From NCBI RefSeq assembly GCF_037996765.1, contig NZ_JBBNAD010000004.1:1054001-1118000 (forward strand): 64,000 nucleotides of DNA, in the 5' to 3' direction. The translations under genes and the position numbers were made by a program. This DNA is from Bdellovibrio sp. GT3. GTDB taxonomy: Bacteria > Bdellovibrionota > Bdellovibrionia > Bdellovibrionales > Bdellovibrionaceae. Positions 34,712-42,148 of this stretch are shown in pieces. Numbering within the stretch: the stretch's first letter is position 1; the number at the start of each line of letters is the position of its first letter. The notes under the pieces were generated by a model. It worked only from the letters and a program-made list of their open reading frames with translations, had not been told where the DNA came from and did no database searches.

Positions 34712-36463
34712 TTAATCGCGAGCCAGCATCTCCCAGTCCGTCAGATTATAACGGCCCAGAATCTCCTGAAGGTGAGAGTTCTTACGGGATTGCGCAAACC
34801 ACTCATCCAAACCCGTACCCAAAACCTGAACCTGGGGGTTTTTCTTAAGGCCCACTAGGACTAGAAAGCTAAAACCGGTGATGGAAGTTGGATGAAGGGT
34901 AAATTGCCCTTTATCGCGAAGCAGATAATAACGGAGAACGTTATAATCTCCCAGCGCCACGTCCATGCGTTTTTGCGCCACGATGCGCACCATTCTTTCA
35001 ACAACGTCGGAGCCTGAAAGCTTATTGATTTTCTGTCCAGAAAACTCAGCCTCAATACGTCCATCCTGAAGTCCGAAGTCAGAATAAATGATTTTCTTAT
35101 TCACCTGGGATTGTCGGTCAAAAATCTGCGGCGCCTTATTGGCTTTATCCAACAGCGCTCCGGTGTAGTTCACCCCCAACTGAGGACCCACGACCAGAAT
35201 ATCATCCATATAACGAACCAGGTATTCCGGCGCGATAATGTAATCTAGCTTGCGATTTTGCAGCCCTTGTTTCAACCGTGCAGTCGTCACATTCTCCAAA
35301 CGCAGCTCAACACCGAGATCGCGAGAGACCTCCCCTAGGATTTCAAAAAGATAACCCGTCCATACACCCGGGGACTTTTCACAAATATACGGACAAAGTG
35401 GAGTCGTCCCAATGCGAATGATGCGCTTCTGATTTCCATCAAATTCCTTTCGCGCCAGAGGGGAGGTGGTTTTCTTTTCTGCTTTTTTGGGAGCAACGGC
35501 TTTGGGCACACCCATCCAGCCTGGATACTCCGCAATATTCTTTTTGGTGATAGGGAACGTGGTGACACGAATCTTGCGTTCAACCGGATTCCCATTTAGC
35601 ACTTTCACAAGCACCCGAACGGATTCACGCCCCAGTTCCCCGCAGAACTGAGCTGAATCAATAACCGTCAAACGATCTTCTCGAATATTCTCAACCGAAG
35701 CAGGGTCCCCATCAAAGGTGGCGTGTCTGATTTCGGTTCTTTTCTTGGCATAAAGTTCTTTGATTATCTCCAAACCACCACCGTCATTGACGGTCAAAAT
35801 CAAATCGACACTGTCTTTCGCTGGAAAATCCTTCAAAAACTTTTTAACGGCTGCCTTGCCTGAATCGGGATCAACCGCCTGATAAACACCAACAACTTCA
35901 AAACGGACATTCTGACTTCTTAAAGAATCAAAAAAACCATCTACCCGCTCCGTGGTTGATGAAACCTGCGGATACTCAAAAACGACAATTCTGATTTTCT
36001 TTTCAGGCTTGAATAAACTTGTGATGAACTGCCCGTTGTCCCGCCCCGCATGGTAATTCGCACTCGTGATAAAGGCAGTCAGATCACCGTTCACGATATA
36101 CTGATCGTAGGCAATGACCGGAATTTTCAACTTATTGGCTTCTTGCAGACCGGAAGCCAGGGCTGAGTTGTCAGTCGGTTGGATGACGATGGCATTCGGC
36201 TTTGTTTTTAAGGCTTGTTGCAATTGATTGACCTGATTTTCAATCCCGGCCCGTCCTTCACCCGCAACATAGGGAGTCACAGTGATGGAGTTTTTTCCTT
36301 TGTTTTCGGTATTATATTTCTGAACCTGCTCTTCGAGGCCTTTGCGCATGGCAACCTGGCCTTCGATTTTCATACTCCAGTATAAAACGGCCACTTTCCA
36401 GTCCTTGGCATGAGCGACTGAAGACATCAGGATAAATATGCAAAGCAAGAATGAGTATTTCAC
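34712..36463 (-). CDS. Fused type I and type II periplasmic binding domains
   Basis: A signal peptide (ending AHAKD) precedes two different binding folds in one 583-aa protein. Residues about 21-310 match the sugar-binding type I fold: an opening strand VAVLYWS, NAIVIQPTDNSAL, PVIAYD and DLILTVNDGGG. A short Lys-rich linker leads to residues about 345-575, which match SBP_bac_3 type II binding proteins (RIIRIGTTPLCPYICEKSPG, GYLFEILGE, KMDVALGDYNV-like). Normally these are separate proteins. No transporter genes adjoin it, so it could be a sensor or scavenger. GTG start. It follows the FlgT-like pair by 39 bases. Confidence 0.78.
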   Translation of the reverse strand: MKYSFLLCIFILMSSVAHAKDWKVAVLYWSMKIEGQVAMRKGLEEQVQKYNTENKGKNSITVTPYVAGEGRAGIENQVNQLQQALKTKPNAIVIQPTDNSALASGLQEANKLKIPVIAYDQYIVNGDLTAFITSANYHAGRDNGQFITSLFKPEKKIRIVVFEYPQVSSTTERVDGFFDSLRSQNVRFEVVGVYQAVDPDSGKAAVKKFLKDFPAKDSVDLILTVNDGGGLEIIKELYAKKRTEIRHATFDGDPASVENIREDRLTVIDSAQFCGELGRESVRVLVKVLNGNPVERKIRVTTFPITKKNIAEYPGWMGVPKAVAPKKAEKKTTSPLARKEFDGNQKRIIRIGTTPLCPYICEKSPGVWTGYLFEILGEVSRDLGVELRLENVTTARLKQGLQNRKLDYIIAPEYLVRYMDDILVVGPQLGVNYTGALLDKANKAPQIFDRQSQVNKKIIYSDFGLQDGRIEAEFSGQKINKLSGSDVVERMVRIVAQKRMDVALGDYNVLRYYLLRDKGQFTLHPTSITGFSFLVLVGLKKNPQVQVLGTGLDEWFAQSRKNSHLQEILGRYNLTDWEMLARD

Positions 36464-36502: not shown

Positions 36503-37429
36503 TTAATAGATCTCTACGCGGTCGTTTTCTTTAAATCCGGAACCACTATGAATGATGGCAATAGAGCCGTCGGTTCCAAAGTAAGAAATCACTTCAAGCG
36601 TGCCCTTCAATCGACCAGGAGCGCGTCCAATATGCGTCCCACTTTCTGGGTCATAAATGTCATTACCATCCTCGATCACCTTTAGAAGATCACCCATTTC
36701 CAAACCGGAAATCTTGCCAACATTCAGATAAATGCGATCTCCCTGTATTGCAGCAATACGACCTTCCCAGGAAATCTTCTCAAGCGCCGTTAATACCTGC
36801 GGAGAGAAATCCAAAAAAGCATCTTTAACAATAACGTCGATCATATCAGGATTGTTTTGCAAAAACTTGTCAGTCTCCACTCTCTCACCAACTCGAACGC
36901 CTTGGTCTTTAAGAGTGACTGTCTTGATAGTGTTAAAAACTTCCTGACCACTGCGAGCTGTGACAACGCGAACTTGGGCCACGACCTCAAAACCCGTGGT
37001 CATTTGTCGAACAACACCTACGTTGTCAGCACTGCGCTTGACTCGCACATCCAGAACACGACCTTCCAAAACAGCATTGAAACCCAAGGCACCGGCAGCT
37101 TTGGATACTTCAGAAAGTTTATATCCACCTGCGGGGTCCATCATTTTGGTCAAATCAATATTTAGTTCTCGACTGTCCATAGCGATCAACTCGCCTGAAC
37201 GATTTAAATCAGAAATAAAAGCCGCACGAGCACGATCCCGTACACTTTGGGGACGTTTATCTGAGGAATCCAAAAATGGTAGAACCATCAAACGCTTGCG
37301 AGGCGAAGAATCATTCTTATAAGAGACCTGGTTGTCATCACGAACTTCGCGCTGAGGACCGCCACCGCGATCCACCGTCATACATCCCACCATGGACAAA
37401 ACGGCCGTCAAAACCAAAAGCAATCTCAC
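36503..37429 (-). CDS. Lipoprotein, FlgT middle/C-terminal-like
   Basis: The product (308 aa) has a lipoprotein signal (MVGC, Cys16). Residues about 45-215 resemble the CsgG-like/FlgT middle domain (LMVLPFLDSSDKR, AVLEGRVLDVRVKR), and residues about 225-308 the FlgT C-terminal domain (IYLNVGKISGLEMGDLLKV, ENDRVEIY). FlgT forms the H-ring of sheathed flagella in Vibrio. The upstream gene resembles the FlgT N-terminal part, so the pair could be a split version. The start is GTG with GGAGG five bases upstream. Homology is from pattern only. Confidence 0.6.
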   Translation of the reverse strand: MRLLLVLTAVLSMVGCMTVDRGGGPQREVRDDNQVSYKNDSSPRKRLMVLPFLDSSDKRPQSVRDRARAAFISDLNRSGELIAMDSRELNIDLTKMMDPAGGYKLSEVSKAAGALGFNAVLEGRVLDVRVKRSADNVGVVRQMTTGFEVVAQVRVVTARSGQEVFNTIKTVTLKDQGVRVGERVETDKFLQNNPDMIDVIVKDAFLDFSPQVLTALEKISWEGRIAAIQGDRIYLNVGKISGLEMGDLLKVIEDGNDIYDPESGTHIGRAPGRLKGTLEVISYFGTDGSIAIIHSGSGFKENDRVEIY

Positions 37430-37439
37430 CAGAGCCTCC

Positions 37440-38606
37440 TTATTGCGCCAGTTTTAAAACAATTTCTTCGCGATCTTCAGATACTTTAACCAGTTTCTTG
37501 CCATTGACATCCAATGTCTCAAGCTTTGTGGCAAGTTCTGCTGCCGAAGCCGCAGTGTCCACTTCAAAACTGACAGAGTCAGAACTCACCAATCTCTCAC
37601 GAATGTTTTTAACCTGAGTCAATTGGGAGCGAATGCGCTCCTTCAAAGCTTCCATCGAAGGCAACGTATGCTTGCCAGTAACTGTCACGCGAATAACGGA
37701 AGTACCCACGGAACCTCTTTGCCATGCTTCAAACACCTGGGAAGCCAGATCATTGGAAACCGCCTCGGCCACTTCGCGGATTTTTTTATCAACCGCACCC
37801 TCGAAGGAACCTTGCACATCGTAACGACGAGACACATCCGCAATCGGGCGGGCATTGCTTACCTGCAGGGCTGTCATGCGGATCTCAACTTTATAGCCGT
37901 TACCTTTATCCGCTTTACTTAAAAAGATCTGGCCGTCAATCAATACCGGAGCATTGAAGTATTGCGCAAAAAACTGCGCATCATCACCAGCAATTCTTTC
38001 ATTCTGATAACTGCCGGGAACATTGATTCCCAAACCTGATTCGACGGGCTTGATCACATAAAAACCACTTTTCAAAAAAGAACCACGAAGGGCTTCTTCA
38101 ATGGTGCGATTTTGTTTTACCAGAAAGCCTTGATTCTTATCCGAGGACGTCTGCCACCAACGGTAACTGCGTCCTTCAACACGATCCACGACACTGATCA
38201 CCGGCAAAACCACCGGAATGGTGTCGTTTTCGTTCAAAAGTGAATTCACCTGCAAAAGCTGTTTCAGATCCGTCAGCGACACTTTCATGTTCACTGTCAT
38301 CTTGTACTCTTCACCTTCCTGAGTGATCGGTGAAGGCTTCACAAATGGAATATAACGGGGCGAAAGCTTGATCACTTTATTCGCGATCAAGGATTTGTTT
38401 TTGGAGTATCGTTCCTCGCCAATCAGATCCTTGATAACTTCCTCGGAAATTTTTTGCGAAGCTTGGTTTTGAATATCCGCCTTTGCAGCCTGCGGAGTTG
38501 TTTGTTTGGAAGTTCCGGCGAAGTTACGCTCCAGAAGATCCGCTTGTTGTGCAAATACGATAGAAGAAAACATCACGAAGAAAACAATCAAAGATGCAAA
38601 ACGCAT
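37440..38606 (-). CDS. Exported protein, FlgT N-terminal-like / LPP20-like
   Basis: The 388-aa product has a signal peptide (ending IVFAQQ) and then a region with Ala-rich helices and alternating strands (AAKADIQNQASQKI, PRYIPFVKPSPI, YKMTVNMKVSL) like the FlgT/LPP20 N-terminal fold. A second, similarly sized domain follows. It lies five bases after the dnaE stop and ten bases before the FlgT-like lipoprotein gene, which indicates one transcript. AAGGAAA precedes the ATG. A role in an envelope ring or similar assembly is inferred. Confidence 0.55.
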   Translation of the reverse strand: MRFASLIVFFVMFSSIVFAQQADLLERNFAGTSKQTTPQAAKADIQNQASQKISEEVIKDLIGEERYSKNKSLIANKVIKLSPRYIPFVKPSPITQEGEEYKMTVNMKVSLTDLKQLLQVNSLLNENDTIPVVLPVISVVDRVEGRSYRWWQTSSDKNQGFLVKQNRTIEEALRGSFLKSGFYVIKPVESGLGINVPGSYQNERIAGDDAQFFAQYFNAPVLIDGQIFLSKADKGNGYKVEIRMTALQVSNARPIADVSRRYDVQGSFEGAVDKKIREVAEAVSNDLASQVFEAWQRGSVGTSVIRVTVTGKHTLPSMEALKERIRSQLTQVKNIRERLVSSDSVSFEVDTAASAAELATKLETLDVNGKKLVKVSEDREEIVLKLAQ

Positions 38607-38611
38607 TTTCC

Positions 38612-41600
38612 TTACCTCAATTCAATAAAATCCGTTCGTCCAAACAAGGAATGGACGCCTTCAAAGAACTCATTGCTGACATTCACACCGGATATATCGC
38701 CTACTTCCATCATCACACGGCGACGGACGTCGGGTATATCAATTTCCAGACTTACTGCCGTTGGACCGGGATTATCCTTCATCAATAAACTCAAACTCTG
38801 ATAATCCTGGTGCGGAATACGATCCAGCCTAAAGACCATACGTTTGGTTTTCTTTAAAATGTCCTCCAACGGAGACACAGAATCCACCATGATCTTTGCC
38901 ACCCCTTCCTCGACCTCAAGACCACCGCCGATCAACATCGGACGCTCATCTTTCAGCATCTCACCATTCTTGGCGAAAGCATCGGGGAAGATCACCAACT
39001 CCACCGCCCCGGTCAGATCCTCGATCTTACCGAAAGCCATACGAGTTCCTTTTTTCGTGATCAACTCACGCAACTCAGTGATGAGGCCGGCGACGATCAC
39101 GCGCTTTTTCGCAGCATCGCGGTTTTTCCAGTCTTTCTTGGCGGCCTGCATGGCTTCCCATTCAGGTGAACCCTGAGCTGGCATCTGGGCTGGCAAATCC
39201 ACAACTTTACAAGTCGTAAAGATCTCAGATAGTGTATCAAACCCCTTCAACGGGTGATCACTCAGATAGAAACCCAAAACTTCTTTTTCGTAAGCCAGAG
39301 TCGCTGTACGGTTCCAGGATTTTACCTCTTCCAGTTTAACAATAGTTTCTGTAGAAGGCCCCAGATCAAACAATGACGACTGCCCCAGCTCACGGTCTTT
39401 TTGCAAACCTTGAGCTCGATCCAGGAATTTCTGATAACCGCTGATCAACTGATTCCGGTGTGCACCGAACCCATCGAAGGCACCAGCTTTAATCAAACAC
39501 TCGATCACTTTTTTATTTACGCGACGAAGATCGATCGCATTGAAAAATTCATCCAGAGAGTTGAACTTCTTGTCAGGCATGTTTTCACGGGCTTCAACAA
39601 TGGCTTCAACCGCATTTTGCCCAACACCCTTGATCCCGCCCAGACCGAAGTAAACTTCGTCCCCATGGGCACCAAAGAAATATTCCGAGAAATTCACATG
39701 CGGGGATTTAACCGTGATTCCACGCTTTGCCGCATCCTTGGAGTACTTGACGATTTTATCCGTATCAGACAACTCGGTGGAAAGAAGTGCAGCAAAGAAC
39801 TCAACAGGATAGTGGCACTTCAACCAGGCCGTCTGTAACGTAACAACGGAGTAAGCAGCGGCATGGGATTTATTGAAACCGTAATCCGCAAACTTATACA
39901 TCAGATCAAACAACTCAGAAGAACGATCTTTGTTGTGTCCTCTTTCGATCGCACCCTTCATGAAACGTTCACGGTGCTGATCCATCTCCTCTTTGATCTT
40001 CTTACCCATCGCACGACGAAGCATGTCGGCTTCCCCGAGAGAGTAACCGGCGATTCGCGAGGCGATACCCATAACCTGTTCTTGATAAACCATAATCCCG
40101 TAGGTCTCAGACAAGACCTCACGAGTGTCTTCCAGAAGATATTCAACCGGCGCTTTGCCATGCTTACGATCTGTAAAGTCAGGAATATTTGCCATCGGAC
40201 CCGGACGGTACAACGACGTGATCGCAGTGATATCCGCAAATGACGATGGACGGATTTTACGAGTGGCATCGGTGATGCCCTCACCCTCGAACTGGAACAC
40301 CCCTGCGGTATCACCACGTGACATCATTTCAAAGGTGGCCGTATCGGTCATCGGAATCATGCGTGACGTGATCGCCTTGCCACGATTCTTTTTGATATGT
40401 TTCAACGCTATGTTGATGTGAGTCAGCGTCTTCAATCCCAGGAAGTCGAATTTGATCAAACCGATTTTCTCGGCATGCTTCATATCGTATTGAACGACTT
40501 GCTCGCCATCAGCGCCTTTATAAAGCGGCGCGTGTTTCACCAACTGACCATCACCGATGATAACACCGGCCGCATGGATCCCTGCGTTTCGAACCATACC
40601 TTCCACACGCTGTGCAAGATCGATTAAAGTCGCAACCGTTGGATTCATCTCCATCATCTCAGTCAGGCGAGGCTCCATCTCAAGAGACTCTTTCAAACTG
40701 ATCCCCAATTTATCCGGAATCAGCTTTGTCACCTGATCCACTTCAGCGAAAAGCATTCCCAATACGCGACCCACGTCTTTCAGAGCAGCACGAGTCTGCA
40801 ACTTACCGTAGGTGATGATCTGAGAAACTGAAGCCTGACCGTATTTCTCGGTCACATAACGAATCACTTCCTGACGACGATCCTGACAGAAGTCGATATC
40901 GAAGTCGGGCATGGAGATACGTTCCGGATTCAGGAAACGCTCAAACAGAAGGAAATTTGGAAGTGGATCCAAATCCGTAATTTTTAATACATATGCGACC
41001 AGAGAACCCGCACCGGATCCACGACCTGGCCCCACAGGGATGTCGTGATCCTTTGCCCAGCCGATGAAATCCTGGACGATCAAGAAGTAACCGTTGAACC
41101 CCATGCGATCAATGATACCCAGCTCATAATCCAAACGAGCAAAGTAGTCCGGTTTTTTCTCTTCAGGGACAGCCTCCCCGCGTTCTGCAGCCTCTTCAAA
41201 GCGCTGCAACAGGCCTTCTTTTGAACGACGGGCAATGTCTTCTTTCAAAGTCACGCCTTCGTCAGTGGGGAATGTTGGCAAGTGATAAATGGGCTTGCCA
41301 GCGTCGTCCTTAAGTTTGAATTTCACATCGCAGCGCTCGGCGATTTGCAAAGTGTTACTGATGGCCTCTGGAATATCAGAGAACAATTCAACCATTTGCT
41401 CTGGTTTTTTAAAATAAAACTCATCCGTTCCCAAACGGAAACGACCTTCATCACTCAAAGTTTTATTGGTTCCGATACAGATCAATACCTCTTGGGCGAT
41501 CTGATCGTCCTGAGTCATGTAATGAACATCATTACTAGCCACCACAGGGACGCCCGTGATTTTTGAAGCTTCCAAAAGGAAGGGATTGATCTGATCCCAC

Positions 41601-42148
41601 TCTGGAACGCCGGTACGGCACATTTCCAGATACAGACGATCATCAAAGATTTCTTTCAGTTGGCGGATCTTGGCCAGCGCTGCATCCGCGCCTTCTTTCA
41701 TAAAGGCTTCAGCAACCTCACCACGCAGTCCACCCGTCAAACAGATCAAATCAGAATTGTATTCTTTGATAACTTCGTAATCGATACGCGGTTTCCAGTA
41801 AAAACCTTCCTGATAACCGATCGTCGAAAGCTTACAAAGGTTTTGATAACCCTTGGTGTTTTGCGCAAGGAACACCAGACGGCGCGGCCCTTGAGCGACC
41901 TGATCGCGGTCTTGTTTTTTCTCCAAACGCGAACCCGGCGCAAGATATGCATCCAAACCCAATAGTGGTTTTACGTTGTTATCCTTGCAGGCAAAGTAAA
42001 ACTCAACAGCACCAAACATGTTGCCGTTATCTGTTAACGCCGCCGCAGGCATGTTCATGGCAGCCGCTTTTTTTGCGATTGCTTTAACTCGGCAGGCAGC
42101 CTCTAAAAGGGAGTATTCTGAATGGGTGTGCAGATGAACAAAAGACAT
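38612..42148 (-). CDS. dnaE: DNA polymerase III alpha subunit
   Basis: The 1178-aa protein is the replicative polymerase catalytic subunit. It opens with a PHP domain (HLHTHSEYSLLE). The palm contains the catalytic Asp cluster in PDFDIDFCQD and the conserved GPGRGSGAGSLVAY region. A tandem helix-hairpin-helix region (GGIKGVGQNA) and an OB domain (VIVAGLITELRE) follow. The length is typical of DnaE. It appears to head a transcript that continues into the FlgT-like genes. Confidence 0.97.
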   Translation of the reverse strand: MSFVHLHTHSEYSLLEAACRVKAIAKKAAAMNMPAAALTDNGNMFGAVEFYFACKDNNVKPLLGLDAYLAPGSRLEKKQDRDQVAQGPRRLVFLAQNTKGYQNLCKLSTIGYQEGFYWKPRIDYEVIKEYNSDLICLTGGLRGEVAEAFMKEGADAALAKIRQLKEIFDDRLYLEMCRTGVPEWDQINPFLLEASKITGVPVVASNDVHYMTQDDQIAQEVLICIGTNKTLSDEGRFRLGTDEFYFKKPEQMVELFSDIPEAISNTLQIAERCDVKFKLKDDAGKPIYHLPTFPTDEGVTLKEDIARRSKEGLLQRFEEAAERGEAVPEEKKPDYFARLDYELGIIDRMGFNGYFLIVQDFIGWAKDHDIPVGPGRGSGAGSLVAYVLKITDLDPLPNFLLFERFLNPERISMPDFDIDFCQDRRQEVIRYVTEKYGQASVSQIITYGKLQTRAALKDVGRVLGMLFAEVDQVTKLIPDKLGISLKESLEMEPRLTEMMEMNPTVATLIDLAQRVEGMVRNAGIHAAGVIIGDGQLVKHAPLYKGADGEQVVQYDMKHAEKIGLIKFDFLGLKTLTHINIALKHIKKNRGKAITSRMIPMTDTATFEMMSRGDTAGVFQFEGEGITDATRKIRPSSFADITAITSLYRPGPMANIPDFTDRKHGKAPVEYLLEDTREVLSETYGIMVYQEQVMGIASRIAGYSLGEADMLRRAMGKKIKEEMDQHRERFMKGAIERGHNKDRSSELFDLMYKFADYGFNKSHAAAYSVVTLQTAWLKCHYPVEFFAALLSTELSDTDKIVKYSKDAAKRGITVKSPHVNFSEYFFGAHGDEVYFGLGGIKGVGQNAVEAIVEARENMPDKKFNSLDEFFNAIDLRRVNKKVIECLIKAGAFDGFGAHRNQLISGYQKFLDRAQGLQKDRELGQSSLFDLGPSTETIVKLEEVKSWNRTATLAYEKEVLGFYLSDHPLKGFDTLSEIFTTCKVVDLPAQMPAQGSPEWEAMQAAKKDWKNRDAAKKRVIVAGLITELRELITKKGTRMAFGKIEDLTGAVELVIFPDAFAKNGEMLKDERPMLIGGGLEVEEGVAKIMVDSVSPLEDILKKTKRMVFRLDRIPHQDYQSLSLLMKDNPGPTAVSLEIDIPDVRRRVMMEVGDISGVNVSNEFFEGVHSLFGRTDFIELR

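Follow-up and report, generated by a model that had tools for sequence, protein, structure and literature searches.

Gene order and conservation of the locus

The window, i.e., the whole stretch of 64,000 nucleotides of Bdellovibrio sp. GT3 that was analyzed, carries on its minus strand two adjacent genes that follow directly behind dnaE (38612..42148, minus strand), the upstream neighbor of the pair and the probable head of an operon. The first of them, referred to hereafter as PERI (37440..38606, minus strand), begins with an ATG and encodes a protein of 388 aa with a signal peptide that has no cysteine and no lipobox. The second, LIPO (36503..37429, minus strand), begins with a GTG and encodes a protein of 308 aa that is classed as a lipoprotein by its lipobox SMVGC (37382..37396, minus strand), in which Cys16 is the predicted lipidation site. 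Since the gaps measure 5 nt between dnaE and PERI and 10 nt between PERI and LIPO, the three genes probably form a single transcription unit. Both reading frames lie exactly where a preliminary description of this DNA had placed them, and its portrayal of the two products as a periplasmic-type protein and a lipoprotein agrees with these signals. The gene downstream of LIPO (34712-36463, minus strand) encodes a secreted protein of 583 aa in which a sugar-binding Peripla_BP_4 domain (E 1.8e-36) is fused to an SBP_bac_3 domain of the amino-acid-binding type (E 1.4e-5, slightly below the cut-off).

The organism of the window shares its genus with 23 of the genomes used for comparison. A first survey of 59 genomes found LIPO in 56 and PERI in 54 genomes; this presence, together with Cys16 being invariant in 71 of 71 rows of the LIPO alignment, argues against chance open reading frames. 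The order dnaE-PERI-LIPO is kept in most loci, often with lipB as the next gene, and the named relatives recovered with the LIPO profile came mostly from Bdellovibrio and Bdellovibrionales. Alignments A1 and A2 hold 31 LIPO rows (from 48 found) and 33 PERI rows (from 50 found), the window being included in each. The 71 LIPO rows of alignment A3 represent 70 of 80 loci and the 61 PERI rows of alignment A4 represent 60 of the 66 loci with a PERI match, each with the window protein added; near-duplicates and partial reading frames were dropped from both.

Predicted folds of LIPO and PERI

The AlphaFold2 model of LIPO (pLDDT 89.7) begins with an alpha/beta domain of the CsgG/TolB-N/FlgT-middle type (residues 43-222; 36764..37303, minus strand; VIA-align 2 ranges), followed by a FlgT_C-like beta-barrel domain (residues 221-308; 36506..36769, minus strand) that was delimited from the FlgT_C Pfam match, the VIA-align 2 ranges 220-308, and conservation. 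This second domain is the most conserved region of LIPO and ends in an invariant tyrosine, Tyr308. The best match of the model among solved structures is FlgT of the Vibrio H-ring (chain 8z5n_0, Foldseek E 7.7e-18), on which VIA-align 2 superposes 244 residues at 3.6 A with a Z of 18.9, and the second is again FlgT (3w1e; Foldseek E 3.4e-17, Z 16.5). These alignments run from residue 36/40 to residue 308 of LIPO and cover the middle and C-terminal domains of FlgT, with the domain order preserved within a single superposition, whereas TolB, the next family (Z 12.9), and CsgG (best Z 11.1) each align over a single domain and score well below FlgT. As far as a predicted model can tell, LIPO combines the folds of the FlgT middle and C-terminal domains, in line with the resemblance that was first proposed.

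Sequence models point in the same direction, at scores that stay below threshold. Among the LIPO relatives, no Pfam family matches more often than FlgT_C (67 of the 71 at E<=0.1, best 6.3e-6), and the LIPO protein of the window matches it with an E of 0.0064 and 17.4 bits, below the Pfam cut-off of 27. Profile searches against the sequences of solved structures did not find FlgT, and none of 12 relatives matched FlgO above the Pfam cut-off. Other matches among the 71 relatives at E<=0.1 were to CsgG (25), TolB_N (6), and FlgT_M (3); CsgG was above its cut-off in 2 of 10 other LIPO proteins, some relatives fit CsgG better than FlgT_C, and there was one match to LpoB. The family is thus not confined to CsgG or LPP20, the outcome that had been named in advance as speaking against FlgT, though CsgG does recur among the relatives.

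The model of PERI (pLDDT 91.5, pTM 0.68) can be divided into an N-terminal beta-alpha-beta-beta-alpha domain (residues 24-120; 38247..38537, minus strand) that was defined by secondary structure and lies on the N-terminal domain of FlgT in the 3w1e alignment, a second domain of the CsgG/TolB-N/FlgT-middle type recognized by structure alignment (residues 129-296; 37719..38222, minus strand), and a C-terminal beta-alpha-beta-beta-alpha-beta-beta domain defined by secondary structure (residues 303-388; 37443..37700, minus strand), which lies outside the FlgT alignment. Its top Foldseek matches are the same two FlgT chains as for LIPO (E 1.2e-8 and 2.2e-8), and VIA-align 2 places residues 25..293 on residues 1..264 of FlgT 3w1e, i.e., on the N-terminal and middle domains, with a Z of 11.3 at 7.2 A. 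The predicted fold of PERI therefore looks FlgT-like, yet HpaA of H. pylori, aligned over one domain, ties with FlgT at a Z of 11.4. The likeness of PERI to the N-terminal part of FlgT, as initially suggested, finds support in the predicted fold, apart from this tie, and is not borne out by the family models: FlgT_N matched none of the 61 PERI relatives, and PERI of the window gave no match to the FlgT models nor any other relevant Pfam match. Among 10 further PERI-like proteins or candidates, one matched FlgT_N at E 0.079. The only Pfam family that recurs among the PERI relatives is DUF2066 (PF09839), with 2 of the 61 (best E 1.6e-5) and no match in the other 59, including PERI of the window. 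A weak match of PERI to the FlgO domain in a profile search (E 0.25) was set aside as evidence.

Co-occurrence of LIPO with flagella

We surveyed 241 genomes of the phylum that are at least 90% complete, and found matches to LIPO in 216, FlgI in 222, PERI in 109, and PilQ (above cut-off) in 213. LIPO and FlgI occur together in 213 genomes, LIPO alone in 3, FlgI alone in 9, and neither in 16. FlhA was sought in 30 genomes, namely every discordant or FlgI-negative genome plus two more. Two FlgI-negative carriers of LIPO (G056 and G219) turned out to possess FlhA, and one genome with both FlgI and LIPO (G108) gave no FlhA match, so that single flagellar markers evidently err. The LIPO match of G174, a genome also without FlhA, was discarded as a 19-bit stretch inside an unrelated reading frame of 349 aa. 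Like FlgT, LIPO occurs with flagella: every genome that carries it also has a flagellar marker. It is present in none of the 17 genomes that lack both FlgI and FlhA and in 215 of the remaining 224 (Fisher p 6.3e-20, without regard to kinship), though few independent events underlie this contrast. In a DnaE tree built from 61 genomes (60 of the 241, with all flagella-less and nearly all discordant genomes included; G241 had no DnaE match at threshold), flagella change five times, corresponding to about five independent losses, and LIPO changes ten times. On the supported branches, LIPO changes in the same direction in about three of four independent pairs and never in the opposite one (sign test p 0.25, not significant). 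The distribution is consistent with LIPO tracking flagella and, resting on few events, is suggestive rather than conclusive. Nine genomes with a flagellar marker have no LIPO (G048, G053, G162, G181, G212, and G241-G244, with G181 at a contig edge), and therefore LIPO is not indispensable. Among the loci whose neighbors were read, LIPO stands beside flagellar genes in G042 only, and loosely.

One may argue that the two proteins serve the envelope in a general way, as members of the CsgG/TolB-N/LpoB superfamily engaged in secretion or maintenance, with no specific link to flagella, and that the co-occurrence mirrors genome reduction; we regard this as unlikely. The middle domains of both proteins do share the alpha/beta fold of the CsgG/PelC/TolB-N/LpoB superfamily, the Pfam matches of the LIPO relatives to CsgG and the one match to LpoB fit such a proposal, and so does the survival of PERI without flagella. 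Moreover, genomes without flagella measure only 1.2-2.9 Mb, hence general gene loss may contribute to the absence of LIPO. On the other hand, the two-domain match of LIPO to FlgT lies well above those to CsgG and TolB. Compared with the CsgG secretion channel, LIPO shows the CsgG matches and fold scores given above, but a FlgT_C-like domain follows, in which it differs from the superfamily, and no curli genes were seen among the recurring neighbors read at LIPO/PERI loci. LIPO is gone from 17 of 17 flagella-less genomes, whereas PERI and lipB still adjoin in several: the PERI match lies beside lipB without LIPO in G177, G178, G179, and G160, and in G177 PERI is still directly behind dnaE. This survival, together with the retention of PilQ (by 13 of these genomes at E<=2e-89), speaks against mere gene loss as the cause of the absence of LIPO. 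Several of these genomes (G160, G161, G175-G179, and others), which belong to the same order as the window, measure 1.2-2.4 Mb, and keep PilQ without FlgI and FlhA, are apparently non-flagellated lineages that have retained type IV pilus genes.

A possible split of FlgT and the pilus alternative

The preliminary description had read the two genes as a possible FlgT split in two, PERI providing the N-terminal part and LIPO the middle and C-terminal parts. Taken strictly, with both as obligate parts of one H-ring-like structure, this appears quite unlikely to us. FlgT is indeed the first Foldseek match of PERI, over the N-terminal and middle domains, and the two genes adjoin in most loci, with a related order that reaches families f13, f14, f17, and f21, in which distant PERI-like proteins (hhalign E 1.5e-12) are found between dnaE and LIPO. 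However, the middle fold is present in both proteins, in barely similar sequences (hhalign probability 20), and the additional C-terminal domain of PERI has no counterpart in FlgT; the pair therefore reads as N-M-X plus M-C and not as N plus M-C. The tie with HpaA and the absence of FlgT_N from the PERI relatives weigh on the same side. Furthermore, PERI is decoupled from flagella both ways. Eleven of the 17 flagella-less genomes carry a PERI match, which is strong (E<=5e-51) in three; conversely, none of the 11 flagellated genomes of genus g3 has PERI, and each of them possesses FlgI and LIPO. On account of domain content and PERI distribution, we rejected a simple split as the main reading. 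The distribution also argues against the pair acting in flagella only, and PERI must have an additional job that does not depend on the flagellum.

We have not filed LIPO and PERI as FlgT, because the one-chain N-M-C architecture is not found and the family cut-offs are not reached: LIPO has no N-terminal domain, PERI has no FlgT-type C-terminal domain, and the window proteins reach 17.4 of the 27 bits for FlgT_C in the case of LIPO and nothing in the case of PERI. Further differences from FlgT are that two genes with a duplicated middle fold stand in place of one, that LIPO is a lipoprotein, that PERI ends in a different domain, and that both lie outside a flagellar operon, next to dnaE and lipB and not to flgO/flgP. 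The likeness consists of the middle and C-terminal folds in LIPO, the N-terminal and middle folds in PERI, and the co-occurrence of LIPO with flagella.

TsaP, a type IV pilus protein made of LysM and FlgT_C, shares the FlgT_C-like domain with LIPO. A single genome (G042), in which LIPO and pilQ overlap behind a pilP-like gene, prompted the idea that LIPO, in the manner of TsaP, works with the secretin of the type IV pilus. This is very improbable and was dismissed after the PilQ survey: 13 of the 17 genomes without flagella keep PilQ and have no LIPO, so that LIPO follows flagella and not pili, and LIPO is present despite only a weak PilQ match in, e.g., G034, G142, and G148. LIPO relatives have no match to LysM (71 rows, Pfam), and the genome of the window has a separate LysM+FlgT_C protein. 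In the G042 locus (L053, 8764-19641) PERI is convergent and a flagellar cluster with flgI and others lies a few kb away, which makes it the one locus, among those whose neighbors were read, with LIPO/PERI between flagellar and pilus genes (flgI and pilQ were named by search and the remaining genes by reading). The second FlgT_C protein of the window's genome (L169, 4986-6608, plus strand), which we take to be of the TsaP type, adjoins a dprA-like gene.

A putative outer-membrane collar of the Bdellovibrio motor

Returning to the flagellar reading, we consider it reasonably probable that LIPO is a FlgT-like lipoprotein of the M-C type associated with flagella. As described in the 2018 tomographic study, the L/P rings of the B. 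bacteriovorus motor are enlarged and meet the outer membrane at the transition to the sheath, the protein or proteins responsible being unidentified (PMC5758724). The same study mentions a small disk at the outer membrane, likewise of unknown composition, and states that homology searches in deltaproteobacteria did not recover any known accessory protein (PMC5758724). In Vibrio, the H-ring is formed by FlgT and FlgO, and about 80% of the flagella of a flgT mutant remain in the periplasm (PMC7175336). It is tempting to propose that LIPO, made from the dnaE-PERI-LIPO unit, would be exported, lipidated at Cys16, and anchored most likely in the inner leaflet of the outer membrane. There, copies of the CsgG/FlgT-middle domain and of the FlgT_C-like barrel may pack around the L/P rings. 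The resulting ring could be the small outer-membrane collar of the Bdellovibrio motor, at the transition from outer membrane to sheath, and LIPO would do the work there that the middle and C-terminal domains do in Vibrio FlgT. PERI, with its predicted FlgT N-terminal and middle-like folds, would be a periplasmic companion that may join the collar. The genes, their signals, the predicted folds, the conserved order, and the presence of LIPO only with flagellar markers were established computationally, and we infer the operon, the sorting to the outer membrane, the formation of a ring, its contact with the L/P rings, and any role in passage into the sheath; taken as a whole, a flagellum-associated collar lipoprotein with PERI as its companion is the explanation that we favor with reasonable, not high, confidence.

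We see in LIPO a good candidate for the protein that enlarges the L/P rings of Bdellovibrio. A wider version, which we hold more tentatively and would rate as somewhat short of an even chance, is that LIPO enlarges the L/P rings at the sheath transition throughout Bdellovibrionota as an outer-membrane-anchored collar of the FlgT type, ancestral kin of the Vibrio H-ring or convergent on it, PERI having been recruited from or released to an envelope function independent of the flagellum. In the parts of the open-licence literature that were searched, we found no link of the LIPO/PERI pair to flagella. As a single gene, LIPO offers a concrete candidate that is open to deletion or tagging. Should the proposal be true, H-ring-like collars would not be limited to the sodium-type gammaproteobacterial motors that a BLASTP survey covered (PMC6375700), and the sheathed flagella of two distant phyla would have a building block in common.

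The interval between dnaE and LIPO varies among relatives. Loci with the order dnaE-LIPO-lipB and no PERI exist, some of which belong to Pseudobdellovibrio. In family f12 (L150, 6871-8292, and relatives, cluster c97), this interval, where PERI would be expected, holds a secreted protein of about 470 aa, for which homology to PERI is not demonstrated (hhalign probability 5). A protein of 249-251 aa sits behind dnaE in the flagella-less genomes G105-G107. Finally, in G056, the genome with FlhA and no FlgI match, PERI (L174, 4892-5857) measures only 321 aa and its N-terminal domain is gone.
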